Program-made: the position numbers and the translations under genes
Notes under the pieces: model-generated
What the model saw: only the letters and a program-made list of their open reading frames with translations
The model's database searches: none
What the model was told of the DNA's origin: nothing
Part shown: in pieces, positions 9,948-27,312 of the stretch
Numbering within the stretch: position 1 is the stretch's first letter
Layout of the letters: every line of letters begins with the position of its first letter
Origin: a virus
Length of the DNA stretch: 28,519 nt
Virus record (IMG/VR): IMGVR_UViG_3300027294_000017
Location: 1 to 28,519 of that record
Reading direction: 5' to 3' (one strand)

Positions 9948-9972
9948 TTGATAATAAGATTATTAGAAAATG

Positions 9973-9999
9973 AAATCCCGTTAATAGCGGGATTTTTTT
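9973..9999 (+). terminator. Intrinsic terminator after nrdA
   Basis: Stem AAATCCCG (9973-9980) pairs with CGGGATTT (9988-9995), enclosing a 7-base spacer that can close further by a T-G pair. A T-run follows at 9993-9999. It separates the nucleotide/replication genes from the late baseplate block that starts 45 bases later. Confidence 0.9.
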
Positions 10000-10024
10000 A
10001 TTTACAAAAAATAAATTATTACGA

Positions 10025-10040
10025 TATTTATTTATAAAAG
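10025..10040 (+). promoter_or_regulatory. TATTTAT-type element before the baseplate block, possible late promoter
   Basis: TATTTATTTATAAAAG ends 3 bases before the start codon at 10044. It is very like TATTTATATAAAAG before the structural gene at 27341, and in both cases GAATA follows. A promoter is expected here because a terminator ends just upstream at 9999. Whether a phage sigma such as a gp55 homologue reads it cannot be told from this window. Confidence 0.45.
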
Positions 10041-10043
10041 AAT

Positions 10044-10460
10044 ATGGCGATTAGAAAACAAACATTTGGTATAGATTTCCCTTTTGTCCAGTCAGATAAC
10101 GGTGATTTTGTTAACATGACATCCATACCAGAATCTGAGGTTAAAAGCATGTTAATACATTTACTATTAACTAGAAAGGGGTCTAGATACTACTTACCAG
10201 ATTTTGGTACAAATTTGTACCAGTATATTTTTGAACCTTTAGATGAAATAACTATGGGTAAAATAGAAAATGAAATAACTGACGCTATTGAAAAATATAT
10301 ACCAAATTTAAAACTAAATGCTGTTGAAATAACAAAAGTTGGTGATGAGGAAGCTAATAAAAATAACACTGACTTGGAACACCATATAAGAATAAACTTA
10401 GATTACACTATATCAACCAGAACGTTCCAAACGAGCGATAAATTAAGTATAACAATATAA
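10044..10460 (+). CDS. 25: Baseplate wedge protein gp25-like
   Basis: 138 residues, close to T4 gp25 (132), with the GPW/gp25 family pattern. DFPF.....GDFVNMTSIPESEVKSMLIHLLLTRKGSRYYLPDFGTNLYQYIFEPLD places the FEP (EPR-like) motif after a strand-helix-strand core. It is followed by a helix (KIENEITDAIEKYIP) and a C-terminal strand pair. In contractile tails this protein helps hold sheath and baseplate together and is part of the wedge core with gp6 and gp7. It is the first gene after the terminator and the AT-rich element, and lies 1 base before gp6, so it likely opens a late operon. Confidence 0.93.
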   Translation: MAIRKQTFGIDFPFVQSDNGDFVNMTSIPESEVKSMLIHLLLTRKGSRYYLPDFGTNLYQYIFEPLDEITMGKIENEITDAIEKYIPNLKLNAVEITKVGDEEANKNNTDLEHHIRINLDYTISTRTFQTSDKLSITI

Positions 10461-10461
10461 A

Positions 10462-12276
10462 ATGGCTAGACAAATAAACTACAGTAAAAGGGATTTTGCT
10501 TCGTTAAAAACCGAGCAAATAAATTACATTAAACAATATTACCCTGATGTTGTACAAAACTTTAATGACGCATCAATTCTATCCGTGTTTTTGGATTTAA
10601 ATGCGGCTATTGCTGATAACCTAAACTTCCAAATTGACCGTGCTTTACAGGAAACGGTATTAGATTATGCTCAAGAAAGACAATCACTATTTAATATCGC
10701 AAAAACTTATGGTTTAAAATTACCATCAAAGTCTGCCGCAGTTGCTGTAGTTGAATTTACAGCGCAAATACCAGTATTCGGTGATCAAGAGGATAAAAGA
10801 TATCTACCTGTTATTAAAGCGGGTACTCAAGTAACAAACGGTTCTGGTACCTATGAGGTTTTATATGACATAGATTTCGCTTCAGCGTTAAATAGCGCTG
10901 GTAAACCAGATAGAACAAAAAGACCAATATTTGTGAATAACAAGTTAACTGGTTACTCAATAACAAAAACTGGTATAGTTGTCGCTGGTACAAGTAAAAT
11001 ATTCTCCCAAGTTTTTGCCGCTACGCAACCATTTTATAAGATAACATTACCTGAGAGTAATGTACTTTCAGTTGAAGGTGTATTCCATAAGTTTGGTACA
11101 AACTTTACGACATCACCAGCCGACTCTGAATTTTTAAGTAGCTCAAATAAATGGTATCAAGTACCTTCTTTAGCGGAAGATAGTGTTTTTGTTGAAGACC
11201 CTAATTCACCTAGAGTTAATGGTATCGCTAAAGGCGTTTACGAACAAATTGATCAAAGATATATTGTTGAATATACACCTAACGGTTTTTGCCAACTAAC
11301 CTTTGGTGCCCAAACAGACACATCGTTAGATATTTTAGATGATTTTATGGACAACGGTGGTTTTAGTTTAAAAAGTTTTTTAAGAAATGGTAGTTTAGGT
11401 TTGGCCCCGATAACAAACACGACCATGTATATTAAGTATAGAATTGGTGGTGGTGTTGAATCTAATGCTGGTGTCGGGACAATAACCGAAGTATCTAGAT
11501 TAAATACGGTAATAAATGGACCAGACTCCGCAATTAATTCAACGGTCAACACATCAATTACAGTGACAAACACCACACCAGCTGTAGGTGGGTCAGATGA
11601 ACCAACAATCGAGGAATTAAGAAACTACATTTCATATAATTTCTCCGCACAAAATAGGGCGGTAACGCTTAATGACTATAAAGTATTGATGTTATCAATG
11701 CCAAGTATATTCGGTACACCCGCAAAAGCTAGTGTAATACAAAGACAAAATAAAATCGAAATCGGTGTTCTAAGCTACGATTCATCAGGCAGCATATCAA
11801 ATGACATCTCATCATTATTGATGGAAAACATAGCCAATTATTTATCCAAATATAGAATGATAAATGATTATGTTGTTGTTAAACCAGCTGAAGTTGTTGA
11901 TCTTGGTTTTGAAATATCAGTCATTGTTGAACCTGGTACTCAGCTTGAAACTTCAGCAAATATAACAAAAATAGTTAGTGATGAATTTACTAAAGATAAA
12001 ATTGCTTTAGGTAAAAGTTATAGTGTTGGTGAAATCGTTAAAAAAGTAACTCAGGTTCCTGGCGTTGTTAACGTTAATTACGTTAAAGTTTTCAATAAAA
12101 CTGGCGTTGGTTACTCAAATAACGTAACAAAACAAGCGATATTGGATACAGTGACTGGTGAATTAGATGTGGCTAACAACTATATAATTGTGGAAGAAAA
12201 TCAGTTATTAAATATTAGAAAACCTGATACGGATATTAAAGTAATACCTTTGGTTGCGACTGGAGTTAGTAGTTAA
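10462..12276 (+). CDS. 6: Baseplate wedge protein gp6-like (baseplate J family)
   Basis: 604 residues against about 660 for T4 gp6. The N-terminal helical part (INYSKRDFASLKTEQINYIKQYYPD...DASILSVFLDLNAAIADNLNFQIDRALQE) is the hallmark of gp6/J wedge proteins. The middle is beta-rich. The segment around 375-410 (EPTIEELRNYISYNFSAQNRAVTLNDYKVLML) is the usual J-family motif, and the C-terminal part has VDLGFEISVIVEPG and SVGEIVKKVTQVPGV. In T4, gp6 dimers form the ring that ties six wedges together around the hub. It follows gp25 by one base and precedes the 732-residue protein by two bases. Confidence 0.92.
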   Translation: MARQINYSKRDFASLKTEQINYIKQYYPDVVQNFNDASILSVFLDLNAAIADNLNFQIDRALQETVLDYAQERQSLFNIAKTYGLKLPSKSAAVAVVEFTAQIPVFGDQEDKRYLPVIKAGTQVTNGSGTYEVLYDIDFASALNSAGKPDRTKRPIFVNNKLTGYSITKTGIVVAGTSKIFSQVFAATQPFYKITLPESNVLSVEGVFHKFGTNFTTSPADSEFLSSSNKWYQVPSLAEDSVFVEDPNSPRVNGIAKGVYEQIDQRYIVEYTPNGFCQLTFGAQTDTSLDILDDFMDNGGFSLKSFLRNGSLGLAPITNTTMYIKYRIGGGVESNAGVGTITEVSRLNTVINGPDSAINSTVNTSITVTNTTPAVGGSDEPTIEELRNYISYNFSAQNRAVTLNDYKVLMLSMPSIFGTPAKASVIQRQNKIEIGVLSYDSSGSISNDISSLLMENIANYLSKYRMINDYVVVKPAEVVDLGFEISVIVEPGTQLETSANITKIVSDEFTKDKIALGKSYSVGEIVKKVTQVPGVVNVNYVKVFNKTGVGYSNNVTKQAILDTVTGELDVANNYIIVEENQLLNIRKPDTDIKVIPLVATGVSS

Positions 12277-12278
12277 TT

Positions 12279-14477
12279 ATGGAGAAAAACATTAAGATAG
12301 TTTTAAATGAAAACGAGACTAACGAAAGAATATTGGTAAACTTAGAGGATGATTTTGATAATTTAGAAGTCCTTAGTTTAAAAATATCTAGCACTGATGT
12401 CTATAGAAAAACATCATCAGACTTTGGTGTTGTTGTTGGTCGTGTACAAACGGCTAACGGATATGGCTTACAAAATGCCAGAGTCTCAATATTTGTACCA
12501 ATAGACCCTTTAGATAAAGTTAGACCAGAAATATTAGAACTATACCCCTTTGAAACAGTAAACGACCAATTTCCAAATGGGGTTAGGTATAACTTATTAC
12601 CAAGAACTAGGAATCAAAATCCTAGTCACAGAGCTGTGGGTAATTTACCAACAATAAATGACCTAATACACTACCCTCAATATCTTGAGGTTATGGAAAA
12701 ATATTATAAATATACAGCAACAACCAATGAATCTGGTGATTATATGATATTTGGTGTACCAGTTGGTTCACATAACATTATGATGGATTTCGATCTATTT
12801 GATACTAAAAGTTTTGAAATATCGGCTAATGATTTAGTTGAAACGACAACAGAATTTAAGACAATTAATGACGTTGCCACAGCTGTTGGCTTAACTGATG
12901 ATAATAACCCTAATAAGGTACCAAATTACATATATGATGGGTTTGGTAATTTTAATGTCGAAGTTAAAACCAATATTAATGAAATGCCTAATATATTTAA
13001 TGAGGTTAAACAAGTTAACGTTGCTTCTTTTTGGGGTGACGAAGAAGAAGGTGATATCGGCATAACTAGATGTGATTTTAAAATTAATTACAAATACCAA
13101 CCCACAGCAATATTTTTTGGTTGGGCGTCAAACACAAGCGGTAGCTTTTACGCAAAAACAGATGGTTCTATTTCAGAAACACAGAACCCAATAGAGATAT
13201 TTGGTGAAGACACCACATTAGGTAGAATAACCAACGATATTTGGCCAGCAGATGATTTAATGGTTGTTGTTTATCGTTTAGATGATAAATTAACACCAGG
13301 TAGCCGCCTTAGAGTTGGCGCTTTTAAAGCCGAAAAAGGTACTGGTGTCTTTAGAATCGCATTACCCATGTACATGGATTATTTTAAAATAAACCAATTT
13401 GGTGACATGGTACCGACTGACGACACGGAAAATAGTATACCGACCAAAGGTTATTACGCCTTTGAGATTTATGACATTAACGAAAGTTACCAAACAAGAA
13501 TACCATGGGGTGGTTACTGGTTACCTCTCACGCCTGGCGTTAGGGTACCAGCATCACCAAAAGGTGAAACACTAACTGGTGGTTGGGAGGGTACAACATC
13601 TGGTTTATTTGAATACGATTTAGTTAACAGAAATAGAAAGTTCTACACAATCAAAACTAAATATAACAAACATAGAGAGGATAATGCTGGTATTGGCGGT
13701 AATGACATATTCTACATACCAAGATTAAACCCGAATAAAGACGTCCCATGGACATTTCCAATCAATAGAGACGATTTACCTGAGATTAATGACGTGGAGG
13801 TCATTGGGTCCATTATTATGCCTAGATATGAGTTTAAAATACAAAACACAAACACCGAAGACCCAACAGCTTACTATTACAACAGAATTTTAAATATAAT
13901 TAATATACCACAAACAGTTTCTTATAACGAGAAAGTTAGGGCTTATGAATATCATGTTGGTATTGGGGCTGGTTTAAATGGTAAAAATAGTGGTAATGTG
14001 TTTACCGATATTTTTTCTGGTGATGACTTTATTAGTGAGGATGGTAACAATTTTTATGGTGATAGATCAACATTTAATTATGGTGATAACGCTGACGGAC
14101 CCTTAAATTTGAGTTTATTTGCAATTGAATTAGCTAAAAATGAAGAGGCGACACCAAATGATGCTGGTGTACACAGAAGATTTACACAAGCATATAGTAA
14201 AAATTACACACACGGAGTTTTTATTTCTTCAACAGACAAAGAAAATAAATTCCCAGTCCTGGAAACTTCAATATATGACATAACTGATGAGCTGCAAGAT
14301 CTAATTGATAATAAAGTATATACCTCTTACGGGTTTTATACTGGGAATGTGGAACCAACAGGGTTTAATGCCGAAATATCAAACAGATATAAAGGTAATT
14401 TCTATTACTTCGGTTACTGGGACCAAGCCAATGTATTAAAAACTATAGAAAAAAATTATTTTACACAGAATGAGTAA
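12279..14477 (+). CDS. Large baseplate-block structural protein with a carboxypeptidase-regulatory-like beta domain
   Basis: 732 residues, at the gene position after gp6 where contractile phages usually carry gp7. I do not see gp7-specific sequence. Residues about 47-75 (SDFGVVVGRVQTANGYGLQNARVSIFVP) and 145-172 (YTATTNESGDYMIFGVPVGSHNIMMDFDL) together match the strand pattern of carboxypeptidase-regulatory-like (transthyretin-like) domains. They are split by a 70-residue insertion rich in P, N and Y. The rest is beta-rich with many G, N, Y and W (for example RIPWGGYWLPLTPGVRVPASP near 415), typical of virion proteins. There is no signal peptide. It overlaps the next gene by 8 bases. A structural role is likely from context; the exact place in the baseplate is unknown. 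Confidence 0.8.
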   Translation: MEKNIKIVLNENETNERILVNLEDDFDNLEVLSLKISSTDVYRKTSSDFGVVVGRVQTANGYGLQNARVSIFVPIDPLDKVRPEILELYPFETVNDQFPNGVRYNLLPRTRNQNPSHRAVGNLPTINDLIHYPQYLEVMEKYYKYTATTNESGDYMIFGVPVGSHNIMMDFDLFDTKSFEISANDLVETTTEFKTINDVATAVGLTDDNNPNKVPNYIYDGFGNFNVEVKTNINEMPNIFNEVKQVNVASFWGDEEEGDIGITRCDFKINYKYQPTAIFFGWASNTSGSFYAKTDGSISETQNPIEIFGEDTTLGRITNDIWPADDLMVVVYRLDDKLTPGSRLRVGAFKAEKGTGVFRIALPMYMDYFKINQFGDMVPTDDTENSIPTKGYYAFEIYDINESYQTRIPWGGYWLPLTPGVRVPASPKGETLTGGWEGTTSGLFEYDLVNRNRKFYTIKTKYNKHREDNAGIGGNDIFYIPRLNPNKDVPWTFPINRDDLPEINDVEVIGSIIMPRYEFKIQNTNTEDPTAYYYNRILNIINIPQTVSYNEKVRAYEYHVGIGAGLNGKNSGNVFTDIFSGDDFISEDGNNFYGDRSTFNYGDNADGPLNLSLFAIELAKNEEATPNDAGVHRRFTQAYSKNYTHGVFISSTDKENKFPVLETSIYDITDELQDLIDNKVYTSYGFYTGNVEPTGFNAEISNRYKGNFYYFGYWDQANVLKTIEKNYFTQNE

Positions 14478-16155
14478 TATCGTAGAAATATTAGGTTCAA
14501 AAAAGTTTAGTGGATCAACTAACCAAACACTAAAAACTCGAATAATACTTGAGCAACCCGCTACGCTTAGAAATGAGTATAACTTATTTACTAATGTATC
14601 ACAGGATGAGCAATTTTTAAAAGAAAAAAATGAAAATAATGTATATAAAGTTTACGGAACAATATCTCCGATAATAAGTAGAAATTTTCATTTTAGGGGT
14701 AAAAAATTAAATGTTGATGAGAAGGCAATAAACTTTAACCCTGATAACTGGAGTACTGTTTTATGTAAACCAGTCCCTTTTATGGGTTCAAAAGGTAAGA
14801 AGAAGTATAGTATACCATACAAAGATTCAAAAGGGGTTAACACAACATATAAATTAGATTTAACATATGGCTTACCAGCTACATTAGTATACCCATCACC
14901 AATTAATATTAAGAATGATGGTGAATACTTTGCAACTTTTTTAATGAATTATGGACACAATTTAAATATCGGTGACCAAGTCTACATTAGCTCATATGAT
15001 TCAAAAATATCCGCTGGTTTATATTTTGTAACAGGCGTAAATAAAAATAAGATAACAATAGATTTAAAGATTTCACCAAAAAATCTTTTTTATGTTAAAG
15101 AGGCCAAAGAAGCGTCATTTAATTTAGTGACAAAAGCAGATGGTTTATTACAATCTCAACCAGACACGAAAAAAAACGAATTTACTGGTGTCATGAAAAA
15201 CACACAGGTTAAGAATGACCAAGATTTACTCATCTCAGCTTTAAAAGCAGATAGACCGCCAGCTTATGATTTATTTGAATCTAAATTCAGTATATCGAAG
15301 GTTATCGATAACGAAGTTATGGAATATTACGTTAAACAAGCTGTTGTTGTTGACGTATCTAAGGGTTTTGATGCTTGCGGATTTTCAACAAATTTGTTTA
15401 ACCAAAAACTATATAATTTCTTTTTTGATAAAAACCTAGATTTAGGTACCCAGTTGGATAATAAAAACGAGCCAATTACTGAGTTATATGTTGGTTTAAT
15501 TAAAAATGGTGGTACTTTAAGTAAAAAAATTAGCACTGTTGAATCTAATTTTTCACCTTTAATTGGTTACACAAATCCTGGCGAAGGTATAATGAGAATA
15601 TCTGAAACATCTAATACGGAAATATCGGACAAACCAGATATAGGTACCGTATATGACATTGGTATATTTGAGTATTCAGCTGAAAATTTAACTGAGACAC
15701 AAATATCAGGAATTCATCATAATTTCATACTAGACTTTGTTATGTTTAATTACGAACCATTTCATGAGATCAAGATAAAAGCTAAGTCCTCTTATATTGA
15801 AGATTCCGTATCAAATCAGTACATACCAAAATACGCTGTTTACAGTAGAAAATCTGATAAATATATATGGAGAGATGTACTTGATCTTGGTATTTCTGAT
15901 GATGATGGTAATGTTTTAGACTTCCCGTTTTTAAATGGGTCTAGGTATGTATATACAAGATTAGTTTTCCCAGTACTAGCTGAAAAAGGTAAAACTAAAA
16001 AATATACTTTTGGTGTTAACGACATAACCAATATTGATTCATTAAATAACGTTGATAATTATACTAGAGATATCATTACCGACTTATTTGGTGATGAAAA
16101 TGATGTAATAGAAAATAAAGAACCGTTTAAAAAATATACTGACGATAAATGTTAA
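14470..16155 (+). CDS. Unrecognised structural protein, 561 residues
   Basis: A long soluble protein rich in N, K, D and Y with alternating beta strands. It opens with SNIVEILGSKKFSGSTNQTLKTRIILEQPATLR. A stretch near 155-190 (GHNLNIGDQVYISSYDSKISAGLYFVTGVNKNKITIDL) looks like a small beta-barrel module. It contains no enzyme motif, cysteine cluster or membrane helix. Its start lies 8 bases inside the preceding gene and its stop 7 bases inside the next, so the genes are probably translated as a coupled series. A baseplate or tail-tip role is inferred only from its place between gp6 and the giant tail protein. Confidence 0.75.
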   Translation: MSNIVEILGSKKFSGSTNQTLKTRIILEQPATLRNEYNLFTNVSQDEQFLKEKNENNVYKVYGTISPIISRNFHFRGKKLNVDEKAINFNPDNWSTVLCKPVPFMGSKGKKKYSIPYKDSKGVNTTYKLDLTYGLPATLVYPSPINIKNDGEYFATFLMNYGHNLNIGDQVYISSYDSKISAGLYFVTGVNKNKITIDLKISPKNLFYVKEAKEASFNLVTKADGLLQSQPDTKKNEFTGVMKNTQVKNDQDLLISALKADRPPAYDLFESKFSISKVIDNEVMEYYVKQAVVVDVSKGFDACGFSTNLFNQKLYNFFFDKNLDLGTQLDNKNEPITELYVGLIKNGGTLSKKISTVESNFSPLIGYTNPGEGIMRISETSNTEISDKPDIGTVYDIGIFEYSAENLTETQISGIHHNFILDFVMFNYEPFHEIKIKAKSSYIEDSVSNQYIPKYAVYSRKSDKYIWRDVLDLGISDDDGNVLDFPFLNGSRYVYTRLVFPVLAEKGKTKKYTFGVNDITNIDSLNNVDNYTRDIITDLFGDENDVIENKEPFKKYTDDKC

Positions 16156-18275
16156 AAACGCCATTTAAAAAAGATGTTACGATAAGGAAAAATATATTCC
16201 TTAGCTCCGAAGATGGTTCTTCAGATAGAGATTTTGTTTTCTCTAAAATGATAAATGTTGAATCTTTAGCAAACATAAACAGTATTATTGATTTTGAGAA
16301 CGTAGAATACAAACCAACATCAAGTAATATTGAGCTGGACTTATTTTTTTTGAGATATATTAAAAATAACGAGTTACCACAAATAAAAAATTACATAGAA
16401 GAATCTTTTTCTGACTATAATTCTAGAATTGTAAAAGCTTTAAAAATTAGTAAGAGTTCAGAAATGTTTCAAACCAAAGATTCGGACGGTAATCCATTAC
16501 CTAAATATGATTTTGAAAAATCACAGTCACCAGAACAAATCACGGCAAATAAACCGTATGTTGTTATAGACCCTTTAGTTGAGAATAGAAAAAAATACCC
16601 TAAAAAAGAGGGTTACCCACATTTTTATAACACATTTACGTTCCCATTTTGGGAAAATTCCGATGCTTGGGTTAACCTCAAATACGGCTTTAATAATAAA
16701 GCTTATACATATAATTCTTTTATAATTATAGAGTTATATGACGATTTTAATACAGATGGTCAAAATAGGGTAATGACAATACCAGTATACGTCTCAGACA
16801 GGTATATGTTTAGAGAAAAAACAACTGGTGATCTTGAAAACGGTAGCGTTGAACAAAAAAGACCCGTTTTTAATCTATTTGAAGGGGTTGATGGTTATTC
16901 CTTATTTTTCCTAAAGAACTACATAAAATCTGATTTTTATGCTAAGTTTTACTTTTGGGATGCGTTAAATGGTACAAAAATTCAGTTCATACCATCCGCT
17001 AAAAATAATTTAAGGAAAAAGTGGTTACAGGATGTTGAAACATTTAATCAAAAAAACTTATATCTTAAATATGAATTAAATTATGAAGATAGAAGTTATG
17101 AGATTTTTGATTATAACGAGTCAGCTGATAGCTTTGACATATTATGCGATACACATATTGATCTATACGAATTTGCTTACGATGATTACTGGTCTGAGTT
17201 TTTTGTTTTAAATGACCAACCAACGGACATAAAAATACCAACAAACCCAAGACAATACGGTGATCTATTTTTGGATAGAACAAGTATCACTAAAAATTTA
17301 ATTTACGATACAACCCACGCATTAGTTAGTGAGGCAATAAAAGATTTACCAGATTACGAGGAAGTCTCTGTAAAATACTCATATGGACCAACTTACGTTT
17401 GTTATGAATATGACGATTATGCTGGTTGTCTAGATGGTAAATTTGTATCATTTTATGATATAGCTGGATCATTAACTGGATATCTACCATATATTAGTAA
17501 TGATTTAAACATAAAAAATTTATCATTAATGACCAAAACAAGTAATCTTATTATCGATTCGTTAGTGTCATCGCAAAAAAGAAACATTGGTGGTGTTATC
17601 ATTGAAAATAAAAACACTTTAATCCCATATAATGTAAAGGATATTAGTTTTGAAAATATTAAATTGGGAACGGAAGCTAATAAGGTAATAATCGATTCCT
17701 ACGGCTCACTAGATCATAAAATTTATAATCAAGAATCTAAGTCAACAGAAGTGTATACTGAGTTAGCTTTCATACCAACAAAAATCGGTGAGTCTGGTAG
17801 CGATTTTGATTTCACTAAAACGGTTTTTGAGTCACATTATGAGGATTTCAAAGAAAGAAACAAACAAAACCCATTACCGAACTCAACCCCAGATCCTGAC
17901 CAACAATCGGAAGATTTTGTGAATAATATTGATAACCAATTATTATTTGCGAGCGGCCTATTAAATGGTGGGCAAATACAAACAAGTAATTTGAGTAAAA
18001 AATATACTAGCGAAGAAATTGTTAATAAATTAAAACTCGATAAAAAATCTAAAACCGATATGTTCATTTTAACGGCAGGCGTTTTGGATAGTCTGGTTAA
18101 GCCAGGTGAGCAAGTTATAACACAAATAAATTTTTACATCGGTGCTAATTTAGCTAAAACCTTCTACCAAATAAAAACTTTGGCTTTTACAGGTAATTTA
18201 AAAATCACATTTGAGTCGGCTAATGATGGTAAAGAGGAAATAATAAACATACCAATAAACTTTAGTTTAAAATAA
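16149..18275 (+). CDS. Unrecognised structural protein, 708 residues
   Basis: A large protein with many aromatic and acidic residues (DYWSEFFVLND, YYEDFKERN, FTFPFWENSDAWVNLKYGF). It has mixed strands and short helices and no motif I can assign. Residues about 405-425 contain a dense YSYGPTYVCYEYDDYAG stretch. The C-terminal 100 residues look like a beta sandwich (EQVITQINFYIGANLAKTFYQIKTLAF, GNLKITFESANDGKEEIINIPINFSL). The start overlaps the previous gene by 7 bases; the stop shares its final A with the next start (TAATG). It probably belongs to the same baseplate or tail-fibre attachment assembly as its neighbours, with the function unknown. Confidence 0.75.
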   Translation: MLKTPFKKDVTIRKNIFLSSEDGSSDRDFVFSKMINVESLANINSIIDFENVEYKPTSSNIELDLFFLRYIKNNELPQIKNYIEESFSDYNSRIVKALKISKSSEMFQTKDSDGNPLPKYDFEKSQSPEQITANKPYVVIDPLVENRKKYPKKEGYPHFYNTFTFPFWENSDAWVNLKYGFNNKAYTYNSFIIIELYDDFNTDGQNRVMTIPVYVSDRYMFREKTTGDLENGSVEQKRPVFNLFEGVDGYSLFFLKNYIKSDFYAKFYFWDALNGTKIQFIPSAKNNLRKKWLQDVETFNQKNLYLKYELNYEDRSYEIFDYNESADSFDILCDTHIDLYEFAYDDYWSEFFVLNDQPTDIKIPTNPRQYGDLFLDRTSITKNLIYDTTHALVSEAIKDLPDYEEVSVKYSYGPTYVCYEYDDYAGCLDGKFVSFYDIAGSLTGYLPYISNDLNIKNLSLMTKTSNLIIDSLVSSQKRNIGGVIIENKNTLIPYNVKDISFENIKLGTEANKVIIDSYGSLDHKIYNQESKSTEVYTELAFIPTKIGESGSDFDFTKTVFESHYEDFKERNKQNPLPNSTPDPDQQSEDFVNNIDNQLLFASGLLNGGQIQTSNLSKKYTSEEIVNKLKLDKKSKTDMFILTAGVLDSLVKPGEQVITQINFYIGANLAKTFYQIKTLAFTGNLKITFESANDGKEEIINIPINFSLK

Positions 18276-19057
18276 TGGATCAGGAAATAAAAATTAATGA
18301 TGGGTTTGACGGGTATGCTTTAAACATATTTCTAGAAGGTTTAATAGACCCAAAAGGTTCTTTAATAACACCATATTATAACGACCCCAAAGTTTTACAA
18401 ATTGAGGAGTCTTTAAATAATATGGAAAACTACCTTGATATAACAAAGCCAGCAATAAAATATGAAACAAACACTAAATTAATAGCATCATTAGATGACG
18501 TTAATGATCATTTTAAAGAAAAAGAAACAAAATATTTTGTTAAGGGTAAAACAGATAGTAAGTTTTCACTATTAGATCTGAGTTTTACAAAAGACCAGGC
18601 TCTATTATTTTTCGAAAAAGATAACAAAATAAAATATAAAGAATTAATTGAAAGGGAATACCCTAAACCAGAAAACATTAGGGTTGGTAAAAGGATAACA
18701 ATAAGTGGTACTGACATAGTTGGTATGATTATTCTTGAAAGCGAAACTAGGAAGGAATACGTGTTGTATTTAGATACACCCAATCCTATATTTTATGTTG
18801 ATAATTTTGACGGAACTACTATATTTAAGTTCATGAGAAATAATATAGATGATAAGATAACGCCAACGTTAAATTATTATTCTGATATTATTGACGAACC
18901 AAAAATTTTGTCGGAAGTATTTATTGATAGAGGTGTTACAAACGCCTTTGAACCAATGAGAAAATTAAAAAATGTTAATAACCTTAATGAGTTAACAAAA
19001 ACTGGTTTCGGTTATTATAAAATAAACACAAGAGGATACAATTTTAAAGATCAATAA
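18275..19057 (+). CDS. Unrecognised structural protein, 260 residues
   Basis: Soluble, lysine- and aspartate-rich, without signal peptide or membrane segment. An N-terminal part (DGFDGYALNIFLEGLIDPKGSLITPYYNDPKVLQIEESL) precedes a possible small beta-barrel around VGKRITISGTDIVGMIILESETRKEYVLYLD (about 138-168). A C-terminal region contains FIDRGVTNAFEPMRKLKNV, a phrase of the sort often seen in phage structural proteins with a helical docking segment. Translation is coupled to the upstream gene through TAATG, and the next gene follows after one base. The role is inferred from context only. Confidence 0.72.
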   Translation: MDQEIKINDGFDGYALNIFLEGLIDPKGSLITPYYNDPKVLQIEESLNNMENYLDITKPAIKYETNTKLIASLDDVNDHFKEKETKYFVKGKTDSKFSLLDLSFTKDQALLFFEKDNKIKYKELIEREYPKPENIRVGKRITISGTDIVGMIILESETRKEYVLYLDTPNPIFYVDNFDGTTIFKFMRNNIDDKITPTLNYYSDIIDEPKILSEVFIDRGVTNAFEPMRKLKNVNNLNELTKTGFGYYKINTRGYNFKDQ

Positions 19058-19058
19058 T

Positions 19059-19952
19059 ATGGCTATAGGTGTATATGGCGTTAAAAGACCAGCGGATGTC
19101 GACCCATCAGAAATAGAAGTAATTGTTTTATATGCTAAAACAAGAAATTCTGTCGATACTCAAACAGTTACAAAATTAAACGGTGTCGATGTAATGGCAC
19201 CAGTGTATGACCCAGTTAATCAAACTGAGGTTATGGGTGGTATGTACAACCTACAACTACCGAAAAGTGTGTTTAATGCCAAAGGGTATTATACGGTCTA
19301 CATTAGACCAGCACAAATTAGAATACCAATCGAAGATTGTTCGGAGTTAGCTAGTTTCCCAGACATTAAAGGTTTAGTTTTTAATCTTGATAACGCACCA
19401 GCCCAGTTCAGATCTAAATTTACAAACAACGGTTTGGATGGTTTTAGGGTTGAATATTTAAATGAAAACGGTAGTAAGGTGCAAAATTTATATAGAATTG
19501 TGACATCATCTTTTATTGTTGAACCAGTACAGGTTGACACAGCTAATAGTTCAGTTAAAACGATAAAATATACGTACAATAATGTCGGTACTCTATTGTT
19601 TTGTACGGTGACACCTAACGCAGCACCTAGTTTTAAACCAACAGCAACACCATTTATTGGTTATAAGGGTCAAAATATAATATTGACTAGCACTAATTTC
19701 ACGCCACAAGTTTTTGAGGTTGAATTAGTTAACTACGATGCTGAAAGCCTTGCAATCGCATTGTATTCCGATCAAACCAAATCAATGGAAGATGGAATAT
19801 ATACGCTATATGATTTTGATGGTAATATATACCAGCAGTATGATCTATATGAAATCAAAGATGCAACTGATAAAAAATTATATGAGGTTAGAACAAGAAG
19901 AAATAATATTGACACAACAAAGGCATTAAATAACATTATAGGAAATGGCTAA
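19059..19952 (+). CDS. Unrecognised structural protein, 297 residues, beta-sandwich-like
   Basis: Begins MAIGVYGVKRPADVDPSEIEVIVLYA and is almost entirely beta in character: YYTVYIRPAQIRIPIED (about 82-98), SKVQNLYRIVTSSFIVEPVQVD, KTIKYTYNNVGTLLFCTVTPN, then a second domain with GQNIILTSTNFTPQVFEVELVNYDAESLAIALY. The final 40 residues turn polar and basic (YEVRTRRNNIDTTKALNNIIGNG), possibly a helical attachment tail. No enzymatic motif is seen. The stop lies 8 bases inside the giant gene downstream. A plausible role is an adaptor or chaperone-like partner of that giant protein, but nothing in the sequence proves this. Confidence 0.75.
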   Translation: MAIGVYGVKRPADVDPSEIEVIVLYAKTRNSVDTQTVTKLNGVDVMAPVYDPVNQTEVMGGMYNLQLPKSVFNAKGYYTVYIRPAQIRIPIEDCSELASFPDIKGLVFNLDNAPAQFRSKFTNNGLDGFRVEYLNENGSKVQNLYRIVTSSFIVEPVQVDTANSSVKTIKYTYNNVGTLLFCTVTPNAAPSFKPTATPFIGYKGQNIILTSTNFTPQVFEVELVNYDAESLAIALYSDQTKSMEDGIYTLYDFDGNIYQQYDLYEIKDATDKKLYEVRTRRNNIDTTKALNNIIGNG

Positions 19953-22900
19953 TCTTAGTTACACAAATACACCATTAATAGCGGATTTATATGATACACC
20001 TGAAGCTGCATTAGATGCTGCATCTAGTTTGGGTTGTAATGGTTATAGAACATACAATATAAATGGCGAAACAAAATATGTTCCATGTTCTAGTTTTTTG
20101 ACCTATGAACAATCCTTAAGATTTAAAAAATCACAAGGGGTGAGCAACGCTATATCTGGTTTTGGTAATATTGCTGATAAAGCGGTTGGTTTACAATTTG
20201 CAAATGCTAATAGTGAGGTAAACGGTGACCCATTTTTTACTTTAGGTAATTTCTCAATATCAACTGCACAAACACAAACAACATCTAATGGTAAAAATAC
20301 TATTATTTCTGGTGGTAAAGAATATACAGCCGAAAAAATAAATCAGAAAAATCCGTTTAAAAGTAGTGCTGTATCAGCAATTGAACAGGTTAGTCAGAAA
20401 ATAGAAAATAATTTAACAGTTACAGTTTTATTTGATAAAGATAAACTAAAAAACTATGTTCTATTCTCGCCTTTTAAGGAAACGGTTAAAAATAGTATAA
20501 TTGATGTGACAAACCAATTCCCAGCAGGGCTTAAAATGAATGTAATTGGTTTAACAACACCAACCATAACTGAATATAATTACACACCATCAACGGATAC
20601 AGCTGAATTTAAAATCAATTTGAGGAACATAAGCAATCCATACCAAATTGAGTATACAACATCTGGATCAACTAAAAACGATGACGTAAATTTAAGTCCA
20701 CTTAGAAATTTTTCAAAAACTTACACTAGTTACGTATTATATTACAATGGTGTTGAATATAGGATAATAAATGCAACTTTACCAGCATCATACGAGGACT
20801 TTTCAACTGGTTTGTATTTAACGGTTGAAGGAGATCCATTTGTAAACGATGTAAACTTAGATTTGACCGTAAATAGAAACTTTTGGGTTAAACCGAAAAA
20901 AGAGAAATACGATGAGTTTTACAATAAATTACCCGATATGGGTAAATTTTTGTTGAATTATAACTACGATGAAAAGAAATACGTTAGTAATATAAAATAT
21001 ACAAAAACAACAGATAACGGTGTTGATATTAACACCAACGAAAGACTAGTATTCCCCCAATTTGATGAGGTTAACATAGATTTATTTAGTACGGATTTCG
21101 ATCAGTACTTAACTAAATTAAATGATGTTGCTGACTCTTTCGATGCGACAAAATCAAATTTAATTTCTAGATTTTTAACAACAGATTCTTTAAGAGAATT
21201 CGATACTGATGATAGAAAAGTTAACTTAATGTTTAATATTGTTGGTAGGAATTTCGATAATATTAGAAAATATGTGGATGGTATAACCTTCATGACAAAT
21301 TTAAGTTATGATAAGGTTGAAAATATACCAGACCTACTGATTAAAAATTTCGGTAATATGCTTGGATTCCAAACATATAATATCGAAGATGAGAACACCT
21401 TGGTTGAATCTTTATTCAATATAAAAGATTTAAACATCGAACCTGGTCTAACACCAACAGAAGTTGATATCGAGTTATGGAGAAGGGTTTTCATTAACGC
21501 ACACTATCTATGGAAATCAAAAGGAACCAGAAAATCAATTGAATTTATTTTAAATTTAGTTGGTTTACCAGACTCTATATTTGAGGTAAATGAGTACATA
21601 TACCAAGCAAGACAAAAGGTTAATTATGATGAAAAGGTTACTGAAACATATGGTTTCCTTTATAACGATGCGCAATTAACGGGTTTATTACCGTTTGACA
21701 AAGATGGATACCCAACCACACCCCCAGGTATTAGATACCAAGAAGCTGGTTTTAACTCATCAAATGATAACAAAAATTTTGGTCCATATGATTTTGGTCG
21801 ATCATATATTGATGGTTATAGAAAACAAGTCAATGTCAATATTTTTGATTTAGATAGAGTTGTTGACAATGTTAAATCTTGGGCTTATAGTGAAGAAGAG
21901 GTACTTAGGTTATCTGAAACGACTGTTGGTTACACGGAATATTATGAAAAGGACTCTAGATTAATAGTTAACACTAAAGAACTAGAAGTTTACATATCAA
22001 GCGATAAAATATTTGACATTACATTATATAGATTTTTAAATAGAAATGAAATTGAAGTAAATTCAGACCTAACCATTGATAACGTAACAAATATTAATGC
22101 GGGTACATTATCATTCAACCAATTTATGAGGGAATCTTTAGATAACTACATAAAAGTTGGTAACAGAAAAACAATTAAAACCTACCCAACGCTATCAAAA
22201 ATTTATTTTGATTATTTAAAGTTAACCGATAATCCAGTAACACAAACAAAAAGTTTAGAATTCCTAAACATGTTTGATAGTTCTTGGGTTAAATTGGTGC
22301 AACAGTTCACACCAGCGACAACAATATTGAATGCGGGTAAAAAGATACAAAATAGTAAATTTTTAGATAATAAATTTATTTATAAACACGGACTTAATCA
22401 GTCTGTTTCATGGGTTGGTACAGATGGATCAGAATTCCAGAATAAAGCTAATTTACCAGTAAATGTGGGTAACACAAACCCATTTGATGTTTCTGGGTTT
22501 AAAAAAGACGCTGTAACTGGCGAGTCCTCAACATTCACATTGGTGGGTCAAAGAGGTAAAAACTATGTTGGAACCGATCCAACAATAAATGAATATTTCG
22601 GTAACTATTTTGGTATTGAATATGCCTGTGAAGGTGTCGATATATATAAGTGGGATCCAGAGAAAAACTATGGCGATGACTTAGAGTTTAACGGGAACGT
22701 AAACACAGGAACTGGACCTAGATACGGTGTTTTTGTTATATACGAAAACAATCTTTATAGATTAAACACAAATAGGATGTTTACTGGTTTAGACACAATA
22801 AACACCTCTATGTATGAAGCAAATTCAGACATATTATTAGGTTCGGTCGATGATTTTGAGACCATAACATTACCAGCTGGACCAGGTGAGTACGAAATTT

Positions 22901-25900
22901 CGTTTACGATTAGTAGTAATGACGATTTGGTTATTTATGATGGTGGTATGATCGGAGGGGTTGAGGTTTCATCCTTAGGTAGGAGCGGTAAGATAACCAC
23001 TTTTAATGAGACCATAACATTCACCACATCGACAGTGACTTTTTGGAATATGAACAATTGGCCAAATGATATGATCATGTCCAATTTAATTATTAAACAA
23101 AAGCACGAACCAAATAGATACAAAATTGGTGGTGAAAACGTTTATGAGTTAATACCTTTAGGCGTTGACGCATCAACAATAGAATTTAAAGACTCTCCAT
23201 GGGGCCTTATTAGTGAAATAGAGAGAAAATATTACATTGAGGCTGTTGGTATTGGTCATGCTTATATGACTGCTAATGATGACTACATATGCCCAGTACC
23301 TAAACCACATACTTGTTATTATGATTATAGTGGTTTAACAATTAATATGGCTACACCAGGTATAACATCCTACTATGATGAGACTGGGACATTATTAACA
23401 ATCGAACAACCAAAATATTATGGGTACTCGAAAAACACATCAACGACTGAAAAACCAGAAGATGCTGTGTACGGTAGTTCTGGTAATTGGGCTGTACCGT
23501 ATAGAAGACCAAACACCTGGACAAATGGTGTTGTTTACTATTCTGGTGATGTTGTAACTAAATCATCGGTTAATTATCTAGTGACAGGATCAACTGTAAC
23601 TGGCTATACTGTCAGTGGGGTACCGAGTGGGACAACATTAACAACGATAGTTCCAGGATTATATCAAAATTATGACTTAAGAACTAAGACGGACCCATAT
23701 ATGCATATAGATTCCGCATATATTAAGAGATTAAGGTTAAACCCGTTAAATGATAGGATTTCAATAAATTTATCTAAAAACTTATACCTTTTCCAGGTAT
23801 ATAAGGGGGCAACGCAATACGACACATACAAGGTTACTGATAACATATTAAATGACGAATTGTACCTATCTGACTCAACAACAATAACTTTTGACGGTTT
23901 ATATTCTTTAGACGAAACCAAGATAGGCCCTTTCTATACCGCTAACACTGACGAGGTCATAACAAGTACATTAATAGACACCATACTACTTGTTGCCGAT
24001 AAAGATAATTATGTTGACATACAGTCACTAAATACCAATTTTGATGTATTAAACAATAACATAGGTGTTGGCGCTGGTTATTATTTGGTTAAAAATAATG
24101 CTTTCCTAAAAATGGAATTCGATTTATATTTTGAATCAGAGTATAATTTACAACAAGATGTTGATATTAAAATATTGAATCAATTAGGTGAGGCCCTATA
24201 TACACAAACATTCACCTTCTCAGGTAATGATATGGCACAAGATAGAATCGCTTCAGTTGATTACGAAGATGTGTTTGAGGTTGATAGTAAAATATATTTG
24301 GTAATACAACCTAAAGTATATGAGTGTACATTATCTAGGTACGAAAAAATAGAAATTGATTATACGGAACCGACTACCTATTCAGACGAAAACGACCCAA
24401 GATTTAGGGTGTTATTTAATGGGGGTAGATCATTAATAGATGGTAGATATACGGATGATGTTATATCAATAGAACCAATAGTAACAAACCTTAATGATTT
24501 TAACATCGATTATTTTCTATATAAAACAGATAATATATTAGATACATATAAATTTAGAACTAGACCAAACATATCAATATCATATGATGAAAGTAGTTAT
24601 TTTGGTTTATTATATGGTAATTATTATGAAAAGTACAAACCAGCCAGTGTTGTTGGTGACGTAAGTGTTTATGAAAAACTATTTAATAACGATAAAATTG
24701 ATTTTAATTTAGTTGTAAGGTCAAAAGAACCACAATCTATCTTAAATCAGGACCAATCTCAAGAAGGGTTTTATCGTGAATACACAATATCCTCTTCAGA
24801 TAATTATTTAGGTAATACACCGCAAGAAATTGAGAATACTAGTTTAACTAAATCAATAATAATTGGTAAAAATCCAAAACCTAGAACGAAAAAATTAAAT
24901 AAAAAAGATTTCACGTTTTTAAGGTCATATAAAAATAATAACATATTAAACGCATCTGCGTCTACAATTGATTTTATTAGTTATGATGAAGGTTTCACTG
25001 ATTACGATTTAATAGATTTTAACAGTAACATTGAAGATTCTTTCCTTGAAAAAAGAAGATATATAACCGCAACGGGTTATTATGAGAGAGAAAAATCGGT
25101 ATACGGTACACAATTATATAAAGATATTTTGGCCGTGGTACCATATTTTGACCAAACTGTAAATAACTATAAAGTTAATGATATCGTTAAAGTTAAATTA
25201 ACCAATTATAATGCGGTTGTTGAAACAGAAACTGGTACAACAATCGAGGTTAAGTCCGTTGACCGATTATATGTTTGTGTTGAAGATATCACCACAAACC
25301 ACTTAAGAAAGAAAACTGGCGTTTCTTATTTAATGAACATACACCCAGTGTATCAACCAAATGGTGCTAGAGCATCATTTATTCCTATTGAGGAATACGA
25401 TGTGAGATCTTTTACACCAATTGGGTATGATAAGTATCAGAAATTTAATTCGGTTAAAGCTAATCAGTTCCCATATAAGTATGAAACGGTTAAACAATTT
25501 GCTGGACAACCAACTTCACTATTTGATATTGGTGACATAATTAAAGTAGCTGGAACAGGCTCAACTTATACGCTTTATGAGTATGTTTACAATAAAGCAA
25601 TACCATTTGACACAACAAACGTTTACCCCGTTGGTTCATTCGTATACACTAGTGGCTCAACGTATAATGTTGATGGCAGATATAGTTTTTGGATGAAAAA
25701 AACAGCCACTGGTACAACAATACCTGTTGCTGGAACTAATTGGCAAGAATTTAGATACGATGCAACATCAATAACGGGTACACCGTTCTATACTTTTGTT
25801 GATCCATCTATAAACCCAGATCACCCTAATCTAGCTTTATCACCGTCTGCATATAGGCTTAAAAATTTAATTCCAACAATGGAAGACGGCACTGGTAATA

Positions 25901-27312
25901 GAATATACATACAATATACTGGTGTCACAAATATGGTTTTCGCTGACATAGTACCATCTTATTTACCGATGGAAAAAACTAATAACCAGTATGACGGTGT
26001 TGATGTTATTGACTATTTGATCATGACAGGTACCACTGGTAACATACAATATAGTGGTACAACTGGTACGATATATACTGGTTATACGTTAGATACGAAC
26101 TTAATACAAAACAACTATACGGCACTTAATGCGAATACTTTACCATCGTTAAGGTACGCTGGGTTAAACCAAGAAAGAAATGTAACCCCACTTTTCCATA
26201 GATTGTGTACTAACTTGGATGATGATAGTATATATGACTGGTCATCAACTAAAACATACGCACAAACAACTACAAGTATGAGTGGTAGATATGCTTTGAA
26301 TAGAAACGTACTCTATAGATCGGTATCCACAACATCGGTATCAGGTACAACTGAACCTTACGCTGATGCGACTAAATGGGTTGAGAATGACTTCATGTTA
26401 GTTAAGGCGTTTACATTCTATAAAGATAGAACCAGAGTTAAAGTTTATGAAGGTAAAATAGAATCTTTGGATAGTGCAACTAAAAATAGTTTATATTTCT
26501 TTAAAAACGATTTAACATTAAAGAACGGTTTTACCGAGAACTCATTTAGCGGGACAACAAAAAATAATAAATTATTAAATGGTCTTAACAAATTAGCTGA
26601 CGCTAAAAATGAAAATGTTAGGGACGTCAACCAATATGGTTTATTTGGCTTTAGAAAATTTGGTAGTGACATAATAATGGATTATTACTATGCGAGGGAT
26701 AATAATAATTTACCATTAACTGGTGAATTTATTGGTGGATTAACTTTAAATAATCCGTGCGGTCATCACGCTAAAGTAATATTTGGTCTATTATTAGATG
26801 CTGACTTTAGTGATATAACGGAATTGTCACCTAGACAACAAACACAACCAGCCTTACCAATAATAAGTGCCTTAGATTTTAACCCTAATGTTAGGTTGAT
26901 TATTAATCAAAATGGTGCTTCTGATGTCACAGTAACAGTTACTTCTGTTAATGGCGGAGTATCAAATGGTTTGGTTAATTATAAAAAATCGCTTAAAAAG
27001 TACGAAGCTTTAGATAAATCATTTACAATAAACGAAGCAGATTCTATTATTGTTAAAGTAACATACGATACTAATTTAAATAAAACAAAATACGCTAATG
27101 GTATTATTGATGGTTTTAAATTATTTGAAACAAACGATGTTGGTATAAACAATGAGTATGTTGTGGCAACTAAATCTAATGTTGGTAAAGTTGTAACTAG
27201 AACAATAACGCTTAAAAATGTTTATGAAGACAGGGTTATTAAATTAGATTTTAATGGGGCTAACTACACTGAAATTAACACAGTTGACCCAAAAGATTTT
27301 ATAAAATTTTAA
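19945..27312 (+). CDS. Giant tail/baseplate protein with a tail-protein-I/gp7-like module and carbohydrate-binding-like repeats
   Basis: 2455 residues in one open frame. Residues about 385-555 resemble the tail protein I/gp7-type wedge module: a helical lead-in, LPDLLIKNFGNMLGF-like segments, then W512-R-R...HYLWKSKGTRKSIEFILNLVG with the conserved KGT at 526-528. A jelly-roll-like stretch (about 970-1055) follows. Several segments have the aromatic spacing of CBM5/12-type chitin-binding-like modules (W, then Y..G..V, then NLY/NYL, ending P....W): near 903, 1192, 1736, 1893-1933 and 2099-2145. The last is the clearest (YDWSSTKTY...NVLYRSVS...EPYADATKW). The C-terminus is beta-rich. It probably combines wedge assembly with surface or receptor contact. 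It overlaps the upstream gene by 8 bases and is the largest gene here. Confidence 0.8.
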   Translation: MANLSYTNTPLIADLYDTPEAALDAASSLGCNGYRTYNINGETKYVPCSSFLTYEQSLRFKKSQGVSNAISGFGNIADKAVGLQFANANSEVNGDPFFTLGNFSISTAQTQTTSNGKNTIISGGKEYTAEKINQKNPFKSSAVSAIEQVSQKIENNLTVTVLFDKDKLKNYVLFSPFKETVKNSIIDVTNQFPAGLKMNVIGLTTPTITEYNYTPSTDTAEFKINLRNISNPYQIEYTTSGSTKNDDVNLSPLRNFSKTYTSYVLYYNGVEYRIINATLPASYEDFSTGLYLTVEGDPFVNDVNLDLTVNRNFWVKPKKEKYDEFYNKLPDMGKFLLNYNYDEKKYVSNIKYTKTTDNGVDINTNERLVFPQFDEVNIDLFSTDFDQYLTKLNDVADSFDATKSNLISRFLTTDSLREFDTDDRKVNLMFNIVGRNFDNIRKYVDGITFMTNLSYDKVENIPDLLIKNFGNMLGFQTYNIEDENTLVESLFNIKDLNIEPGLTPTEVDIELWRRVFINAHYLWKSKGTRKSIEFILNLVGLPDSIFEVNEYIYQARQKVNYDEKVTETYGFLYNDAQLTGLLPFDKDGYPTTPPGIRYQEAGFNSSNDNKNFGPYDFGRSYIDGYRKQVNVNIFDLDRVVDNVKSWAYSEEEVLRLSETTVGYTEYYEKDSRLIVNTKELEVYISSDKIFDITLYRFLNRNEIEVNSDLTIDNVTNINAGTLSFNQFMRESLDNYIKVGNRKTIKTYPTLSKIYFDYLKLTDNPVTQTKSLEFLNMFDSSWVKLVQQFTPATTILNAGKKIQNSKFLDNKFIYKHGLNQSVSWVGTDGSEFQNKANLPVNVGNTNPFDVSGFKKDAVTGESSTFTLVGQRGKNYVGTDPTINEYFGNYFGIEYACEGVDIYKWDPEKNYGDDLEFNGNVNTGTGPRYGVFVIYENNLYRLNTNRMFTGLDTINTSMYEANSDILLGSVDDFETITLPAGPGEYEISFTISSNDDLVIYDGGMIGGVEVSSLGRSGKITTFNETITFTTSTVTFWNMNNWPNDMIMSNLIIKQKHEPNRYKIGGENVYELIPLGVDASTIEFKDSPWGLISEIERKYYIEAVGIGHAYMTANDDYICPVPKPHTCYYDYSGLTINMATPGITSYYDETGTLLTIEQPKYYGYSKNTSTTEKPEDAVYGSSGNWAVPYRRPNTWTNGVVYYSGDVVTKSSVNYLVTGSTVTGYTVSGVPSGTTLTTIVPGLYQNYDLRTKTDPYMHIDSAYIKRLRLNPLNDRISINLSKNLYLFQVYKGATQYDTYKVTDNILNDELYLSDSTTITFDGLYSLDETKIGPFYTANTDEVITSTLIDTILLVADKDNYVDIQSLNTNFDVLNNNIGVGAGYYLVKNNAFLKMEFDLYFESEYNLQQDVDIKILNQLGEALYTQTFTFSGNDMAQDRIASVDYEDVFEVDSKIYLVIQPKVYECTLSRYEKIEIDYTEPTTYSDENDPRFRVLFNGGRSLIDGRYTDDVISIEPIVTNLNDFNIDYFLYKTDNILDTYKFRTRPNISISYDESSYFGLLYGNYYEKYKPASVVGDVSVYEKLFNNDKIDFNLVVRSKEPQSILNQDQSQEGFYREYTISSSDNYLGNTPQEIENTSLTKSIIIGKNPKPRTKKLNKKDFTFLRSYKNNNILNASASTIDFISYDEGFTDYDLIDFNSNIEDSFLEKRRYITATGYYEREKSVYGTQLYKDILAVVPYFDQTVNNYKVNDIVKVKLTNYNAVVETETGTTIEVKSVDRLYVCVEDITTNHLRKKTGVSYLMNIHPVYQPNGARASFIPIEEYDVRSFTPIGYDKYQKFNSVKANQFPYKYETVKQFAGQPTSLFDIGDIIKVAGTGSTYTLYEYVYNKAIPFDTTNVYPVGSFVYTSGSTYNVDGRYSFWMKKTATGTTIPVAGTNWQEFRYDATSITGTPFYTFVDPSINPDHPNLALSPSAYRLKNLIPTMEDGTGNRIYIQYTGVTNMVFADIVPSYLPMEKTNNQYDGVDVIDYLIMTGTTGNIQYSGTTGTIYTGYTLDTNLIQNNYTALNANTLPSLRYAGLNQERNVTPLFHRLCTNLDDDSIYDWSSTKTYAQTTTSMSGRYALNRNVLYRSVSTTSVSGTTEPYADATKWVENDFMLVKAFTFYKDRTRVKVYEGKIESLDSATKNSLYFFKNDLTLKNGFTENSFSGTTKNNKLLNGLNKLADAKNENVRDVNQYGLFGFRKFGSDIIMDYYYARDNNNLPLTGEFIGGLTLNNPCGHHAKVIFGLLLDADFSDITELSPRQQTQPALPIISALDFNPNVRLIINQNGASDVTVTVTSVNGGVSNGLVNYKKSLKKYEALDKSFTINEADSIIVKVTYDTNLNKTKYANGIIDGFKLFETNDVGINNEYVVATKSNVGKVVTRTITLKNVYEDRVIKLDFNGANYTEINTVDPKDFIKF

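Follow-up and report, generated by a model that had tools for sequence, protein, structure and literature searches.

What kind of protein is encoded by the very long open reading frame (ORF) that occupies positions 19945-27312 of the virus record IMGVR_UViG_3300027294_000017, a stretch of 28,519 bases to which we refer in full as the window? An initial annotation, made from the sequence alone, had proposed that a single polypeptide joins a wedge-type module of contractile systems to several repeats resembling carbohydrate-binding modules (CBMs), and so may link the wedge directly to receptor contact. We combined profile searches, structure prediction and gene order across related viral contigs, and consider it likely that the gene product is a baseplate wedge protein of the gp7/baseplate wedge 3 (BW3) type with a peripheral CBM-fold arm, encoded by an uncultured contractile-tail phage.

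19945..27312, + strand: giant putative gp7/BW3-type wedge protein, 2455 amino acids (aa), about 279 kDa, frame intact in relatives

The open frame of 2455 residues was confirmed: it starts with ATG, 8 bases within the preceding ORF (19059-19952), contains no internal stop, and is complete in eight distinct relatives on independent contigs (L016, L020, L022, L024, L025, L029, L279 and L283/L287), where the products measure 2442, 2449, 2472, 2474, 2478, 2495, 2672 and 2686 aa. L283/L287 is a distant relative, ~33% identical in the C-terminal half; a tblastn search of L287 against the phage collection returned no match. Nonsynonymous divergence (dN) was far below synonymous divergence (dS) in every segment with an estimate; between L020 and L022, dN/dS values were 0.036/0.61 in the core, 0.181/0.834 in residues 901-1640 and 0.108/0.499 in residues 1641-2455. 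Judged by these rates, the C-terminal part is under purifying selection. Conservation peaked in the core, with identities to close relatives of 0.61-0.78 for residues 451-900 and 0.33-0.77 for later parts, and residues 1-370 were also conserved. The most variable stretch relative to L283 was residues 1801-2100 (identity 0.17-0.23). No PHROG or Pfam family exceeded its cut-off on the protein, and direct DNA repeats consisted of short chance-like pairs alone.

The most identical part of the protein comprises two modules, A and B. The initial annotation had placed a wedge-like segment at residues 385-555; the core extends beyond it to the second module at 699-855.

21067..21666, + strand: putative wedge core module A, residues about 375-574; resembles tail protein I by profile and baseplate proteins by predicted structure
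21478..21564, + strand: KGT signature, residues 512-540 (W512-G540, WRRVFINAHYLWKSKGTRKSIEFILNLVG)
22039..22509, + strand: putative wedge core module B, residues about 699-855, includes FTPATTIL; found in 48/53 ORFs at independent E-value (i-E) <1e-2

With the core as query, a profile search of viral contigs found 478 relatives; the 80 best were carried forward and, together with two phage records, gave 53 non-redundant ORFs. Module A occurred in all 53, and a module A model built from 10 close relatives recognized 43/43 distant ORFs at i-E<1e-4, these ORFs having been chosen with the core as query. Module B was absent from five ORFs, four of them cut at a contig end and one (L032) with B in the next ORF. 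The core served as query for the choice of ORFs, and 36 of the 48 B matches lie within the B training set; these counts are a description of the family and not an independent test. The distance from A to B ranged from 18 to 3,052 residues. Complete ORFs (37/53) spanned 896 to 2,686 aa, and one more reached 3,991 aa once its flank was fetched. This longest relative (L294:55-12030, - strand) is a longer reading of the L078/L088 ORF with 3,052 residues between A and B, and a Pfam scan of it gave one sub-threshold PA14 match inside and nothing else. In L032 and L033, A and B are split over adjoining ORFs at 9158-11848 (896 aa) and 11875-15135 (1,086 aa). Thirteen predicted viral structures matched the core at E<=1e-3, none annotated as a wedge protein, and no PHROG or Pfam family covered the scanned family members. 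A further small module follows the core; it occurs once in the window and three times in L004/L011 (residues 946-1284 of L004), and a family scan with it gave no match.

22855..23094, + strand: short module (about 80 aa) containing DDLxIYDG, near residues 971-1050

The KGT-type signature of P2 tail protein I, noticed at the outset, held up in profile comparison. We used a tail-protein-I profile of nine proteins (P2 and eight other phage records), because widening P2 gpI in viral contigs yielded near-identical copies only; T4 gp7 loci L248, L257 and L260 were excluded from set A7 owing to frame or stop problems. Module A matched this profile with a score of 34.4 (E 2.6e-4), above all 60 column shuffles (top score 24.0). 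Against whole T4 gp7, its best place was residues 635-755, with a score of 25.1 (top of 60 shuffles, 20.9). Run over the 206-kb and 166-kb relatives, the tail-protein-I profile found one place each at E<=10 (E 0.02 in both), which in the giant ORF spans residues about 512-552. Structural comparison of the predicted core with VIA-align placed baseplate proteins of contractile tails or injection systems in all top six rows, with unrelated long-helix proteins below: A-1(L) (Z 7.4), T4 gp7 643-896 (Z 5.0), KP1 (Z 5.0), the Streptomyces contractile injection system (Z 4.9), phiKZ (Z 4.6) and Pam3 (Z 4.0). The core profile also matched proteins of 1,265-1,336 aa in Flavobacterium phage immuto and Microcystis phage Mel-JY01, at the corresponding gene place.

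Several results weigh against this assignment. The tail-protein-I profile gave no match over the window's own record, and the Pfam model Tail_P2_I (PF09684) matched none of nine records at E<=10, a model that misses T4 gp7 as well. At the same threshold the core profile matched neither T4 gp7 nor P2 gpI, and module B had no significant profile match to T4 gp7. The predicted model of residues 330-905 is of low confidence (mean predicted local distance difference test score (pLDDT) 53), a Foldseek search of it against the Protein Data Bank (PDB) gave no significant E-value (best 0.098), and Z values of 4-7 may reflect merely a common arrangement. The Pfam models Gp7_5th, Gp7_6th and Gp7_helical likewise gave no family at E<=1 on the giant protein, and core sequence profiles found no relatives in the PDB. 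Each result is weak by itself, but their convergence on a single class of proteins is not; fold, position and profile together assign the core, at the level of sequence and model, to the gp7/BW3 type. The initial annotation had named two contrary outcomes, a core fold unrelated to tail protein I/gp7 and repeats without a common fold; neither occurred.

Gene position points in the same direction. The giant gene lies downstream of gp25- and gp6-type genes in one run of genes, as it does in L292, immuto and Mel-JY01; the order in the latter two is gp25, gp6, two ORFs and the core protein. Wedges built of gp6- and gp7-type proteins are described for A-1(L), Milano and T4 in the respective articles (PMC10966104, PMC10811340, PMC3004832).

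10044..10460, + strand: gp25-type baseplate wedge protein (PF04965, E 3e-14; phrog_261, E 1e-19)
10462..12276, + strand: gp6/baseplate J-type wedge protein (PF04865, E 2.2e-6; phrog_6, E 2.1e-22)
12279..19952, + strand: five ORFs of 732, 561, 708, 260 and 297 aa, probable baseplate proteins, between gp6 and the giant gene

None of the five intervening ORFs had a family over the cut-off, and their order is kept in relatives. The 732-aa ORF (12279-14477) showed a carboxypeptidase-regulatory-like domain (PF13620) below the cut-off (E 1.4e-4). Collagen-like tail-fibre ORFs occur as separate genes, three in the 206-kb and two in the 166-kb relative. Those at L289:1039-8270 (- strand) and L291:2267-8309 (- strand) are located downstream of the giant gene, about 31-39 kb away, and two of the collagen-like ORFs in the 206-kb relative have sub-threshold CBM5/12 matches.

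Beyond the core, five segments had been singled out for a shared aromatic spacing and likened to CBM5/12 modules.

22636..22779, + strand: aromatic element 903, residues 898-945; linked to element 2099 by profile comparison
23503..23679, + strand: CBM5/12-like element 1192, residues 1187-1245; PDB profile search, PF02839 sub-threshold
25126..25329, + strand: aromatic element 1736, residues 1728-1795, doubtful member
25582..25770, + strand: CBM5/12-fold element 1893, residues 1880-1942
26224..26412, + strand: CBM5/12-fold element 2099, residues 2094-2156

The literal W...Y..G..V...LY...P....W spacing proved loose. A strict version of it occurs once, starting at residue 1894, against a shuffled mean of 0.066, with one occurrence reached in 31 of 500 shuffles; element 1736 contains no Trp and element 1893 lacks the leading one. 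The spacing by itself is thus weak evidence. Profile-profile comparison of the five segments (10 pairs, 40 shuffles per pair) was more informative: 1192-1893 (E 8e-5), 903-2099 (E 7e-4) and 1893-2099 (E 0.002) were each exceeded by 0/40 shuffles, 1192-1736 (E 0.03) by 1/40, and scores of the remaining six pairs did not rise above shuffles. These comparisons connect four of the five segments and leave the membership of 1736 in doubt.

The likeness to CBM5/12 stood for most of the segments. Searched against 177,635 PDB sequences, element 1192 matched the CBM5/12 domain of a Vibrio chitin-oligosaccharide deacetylase (E 3.3e-5). PF02839 was sub-threshold at this element in 8/8 records and exceeded its cut-off in none of the eight; lenient matches also appeared in 11/14 control genomes. 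The top PDB sequence match of element 1893 was All3316 of the Anabaena injection system (E 0.018), whereas element 2099 gave nothing significant, the deacetylase appearing at E 1.3 only. The predicted model of residues 1715-2170 is poor overall (mean pLDDT 46), with elements 1736, 1893 and 2099 as its better parts, and Foldseek found no significant E-value for it in the PDB. With VIA-align, residues 1883-1938 and 2094-2152 superposed on chitin-binding domains with Z 4.0-6.4 and a root-mean-square deviation of 1.7-2.8 over 42-51 residues, and elements 1893 and 2099 also aligned with fibre or baseplate proteins of A-1(L), Milano, Pa193, 7-7-1, PhiTE and the Anabaena system. On this evidence the repeats are largely real: three have the fold or significant similarity (1192 by sequence, 1893 and 2099 by predicted fold), 903 is linked through its profile, and 1736 stays doubtful. 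In the deacetylase domain matched by element 1192 (ADW-TP), a conserved Pro is preceded by a Trp that we take to be part of the CBM5/12 sugar-binding face; element 1192 has a non-aromatic residue there, and no aromatic residue occupies the site in elements 1893 and 2099.

Starting from the computed core similarity, gene position and bead fold, we infer how such a wedge may assemble, where its arm may lie and what the arm may do. Modules A and B (residues about 375-855) would form the wedge core, the part that pairs with two gp6 copies in known phages, and the ~1,600 residues past module B would stand out at the periphery of the baseplate as a long arm, carrying several small beads of which at least three appear related to CBM5/12. 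In published descriptions, BW3 (T4 gp7, P2 gpI and others) is where receptor-binding proteins are anchored on the rim of the baseplate (PMC10811340), and the part resembling gp7, which touches fibres, is called a hotspot of evolution (PMC8894135). An arm at the rim is suggested because known receptor-binding proteins sit on a gp7-type core and the chain continues for ~1,600 residues from that core. Most likely it would serve as an integral support by which fibres and other peripheral proteins are held or spaced; weak glycan contact by the arm is possible. We rank holding first and host contact second because of the collagen-like fibre genes in relatives, the CBM fold in fibre proteins, such as the beads of CBM-like fold reported for the Pa193 fibre (PMC11042391), and the absence of the Trp ahead of the conserved Pro.

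Host contact is the substance of a different reading, in which CBM5/12-type beads bind host-surface glycans directly and the six wedge chains together act in adsorption independently of the fibres. The similarity of the elements to CBM5/12 speaks for it, as does the variability of residues 1801-2100, and there is a precedent: the Vp4 wedge Gp119, which has CBM folds, is reported to decorate cells of Bacillus cereus, whereas its Deep-Blue homologue, which lacks CBMs, does not (PMC11406892). However, two related genomes have separate collagen-like fibres, elements 1192, 1893 and 2099 lack the aromatic residue before the conserved Pro, CBM folds occur in fibre and baseplate proteins elsewhere in which a structural use is possible, and dN is not in excess over dS, so that we regard this reading as possible but unlikely. 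The proposal of one chain from wedge to receptor is supported as regards the fusion of core and CBM-fold modules; receptor contact by these modules is a possibility. A wider proposal would treat the gp7 wedge of a large, mostly uncultured group of contractile phages as a chassis: both core modules persist, and domains are inserted between them (18 to 3,052 residues) or appended, giving proteins of up to 3,991 aa with the separate connectors and adhesins of T4 built in and a host-binding CBM arm; in this full form we find it rather improbable.

Two further explanations concern the chain itself. It could be cut after synthesis into a wedge core and an arm, and the adjoining ORFs that carry A and B in L032/L033 indicate that the skeleton is able to work in pieces; close relatives with a complete ORF nevertheless keep a single frame, and we judge cleavage highly improbable. 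Least credible of all would be a fibre or other tail protein whose KGT-like segment arose by chance. The lack of a curated family match for the core and the low model confidence could be read that way, but the two conserved modules are the most identical part of the protein, its place after gp25 and gp6 is constant, and six baseplate proteins head the structural list. A gp7/BW3-type wedge protein with a long arm is thus the reading we retain.

Comparison with known systems places the protein among, and apart from, established wedges. With T4 gp7, P2 gpI and BW3 proteins it shares the predicted core fold (T4 643-896), the KGx signature and the place after gp25 and gp6, yet it has 2,455 aa against 1,032 for T4 gp7 and 176 for P2 gpI, and it is missed by the Gp7_5th, Gp7_6th, Gp7_helical and Tail_P2_I models. 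Gp119 of the Bacillus phage Vp4, named baseplate wedge 3, likewise carries CBM folds in a BW3 wedge protein, but has 831 aa, best matches to family 16 and xylan-binding modules rather than CBM5/12, and cell binding that was tested (PMC11406892). AlgoCIS similarly combines a gp7-like, fibre-contacting hotspot with CBM folds in a baseplate extension; there the CBMs lie in Alg11, the protein that forms a spike cage, whereas Alg12 is a fusion of gp6 with the gp7-like part (PMC8894135). All3316 of the Anabaena injection system (PDB 7b5h_AE) has a CBM5/12-like fold as in element 2099 (VIA-align Z 5.1), but is a separate baseplate-associated protein of 154 aa. The 1,265-aa protein of immuto (immuto35A_161) has modules A and B and the gene order of the window, at half the length, and the C-terminal parts of the giant protein were not found in it. 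VrlC is described as standing in for gp7 in pelagi- and cyanomyophages (PMC7029224). The core profile gave no support for its membership in the same family: it recognized neither module A nor module B in these phages, with no match in HTVC008M and P-SSM2 and one weak match in S-PM2 (E 0.0018) at profile positions 304-432, which belong to the variable part separating A from B. VrlC may still be a remote gp7.

Wedge proteins with CBMs, gp7 as a hotspot and a cell-binding, CBM-bearing wedge (Vp4) are already known. As far as our searches show, what is new is a wedge protein of this size, with CBMs of the CBM5/12 type, a skeleton of A and B that takes insertions of as many as 3,052 residues, and the placing of this family with gp7; in the PMC open-licence literature, as far as its articles were accessible, no earlier account of a wedge protein this large was found, and CBM-bearing wedge proteins were (PMC11406892). 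The analysis thereby proposes a function for a widespread family of huge uncharacterized phage proteins, suggests gp7-type wedges as sites where large domains get added, and makes host binding by a baseplate frame protein itself testable. As for the host, the large ribonucleotide reductase subunit in the window is nearest to those of Tenacibaculum and Cellulophaga phages (about 40%), and the gp6 of the window has its closest counterparts in the phages Mel-JY01 (Microcystis) and immuto (Flavobacterium); the host may belong to the Bacteroidota.

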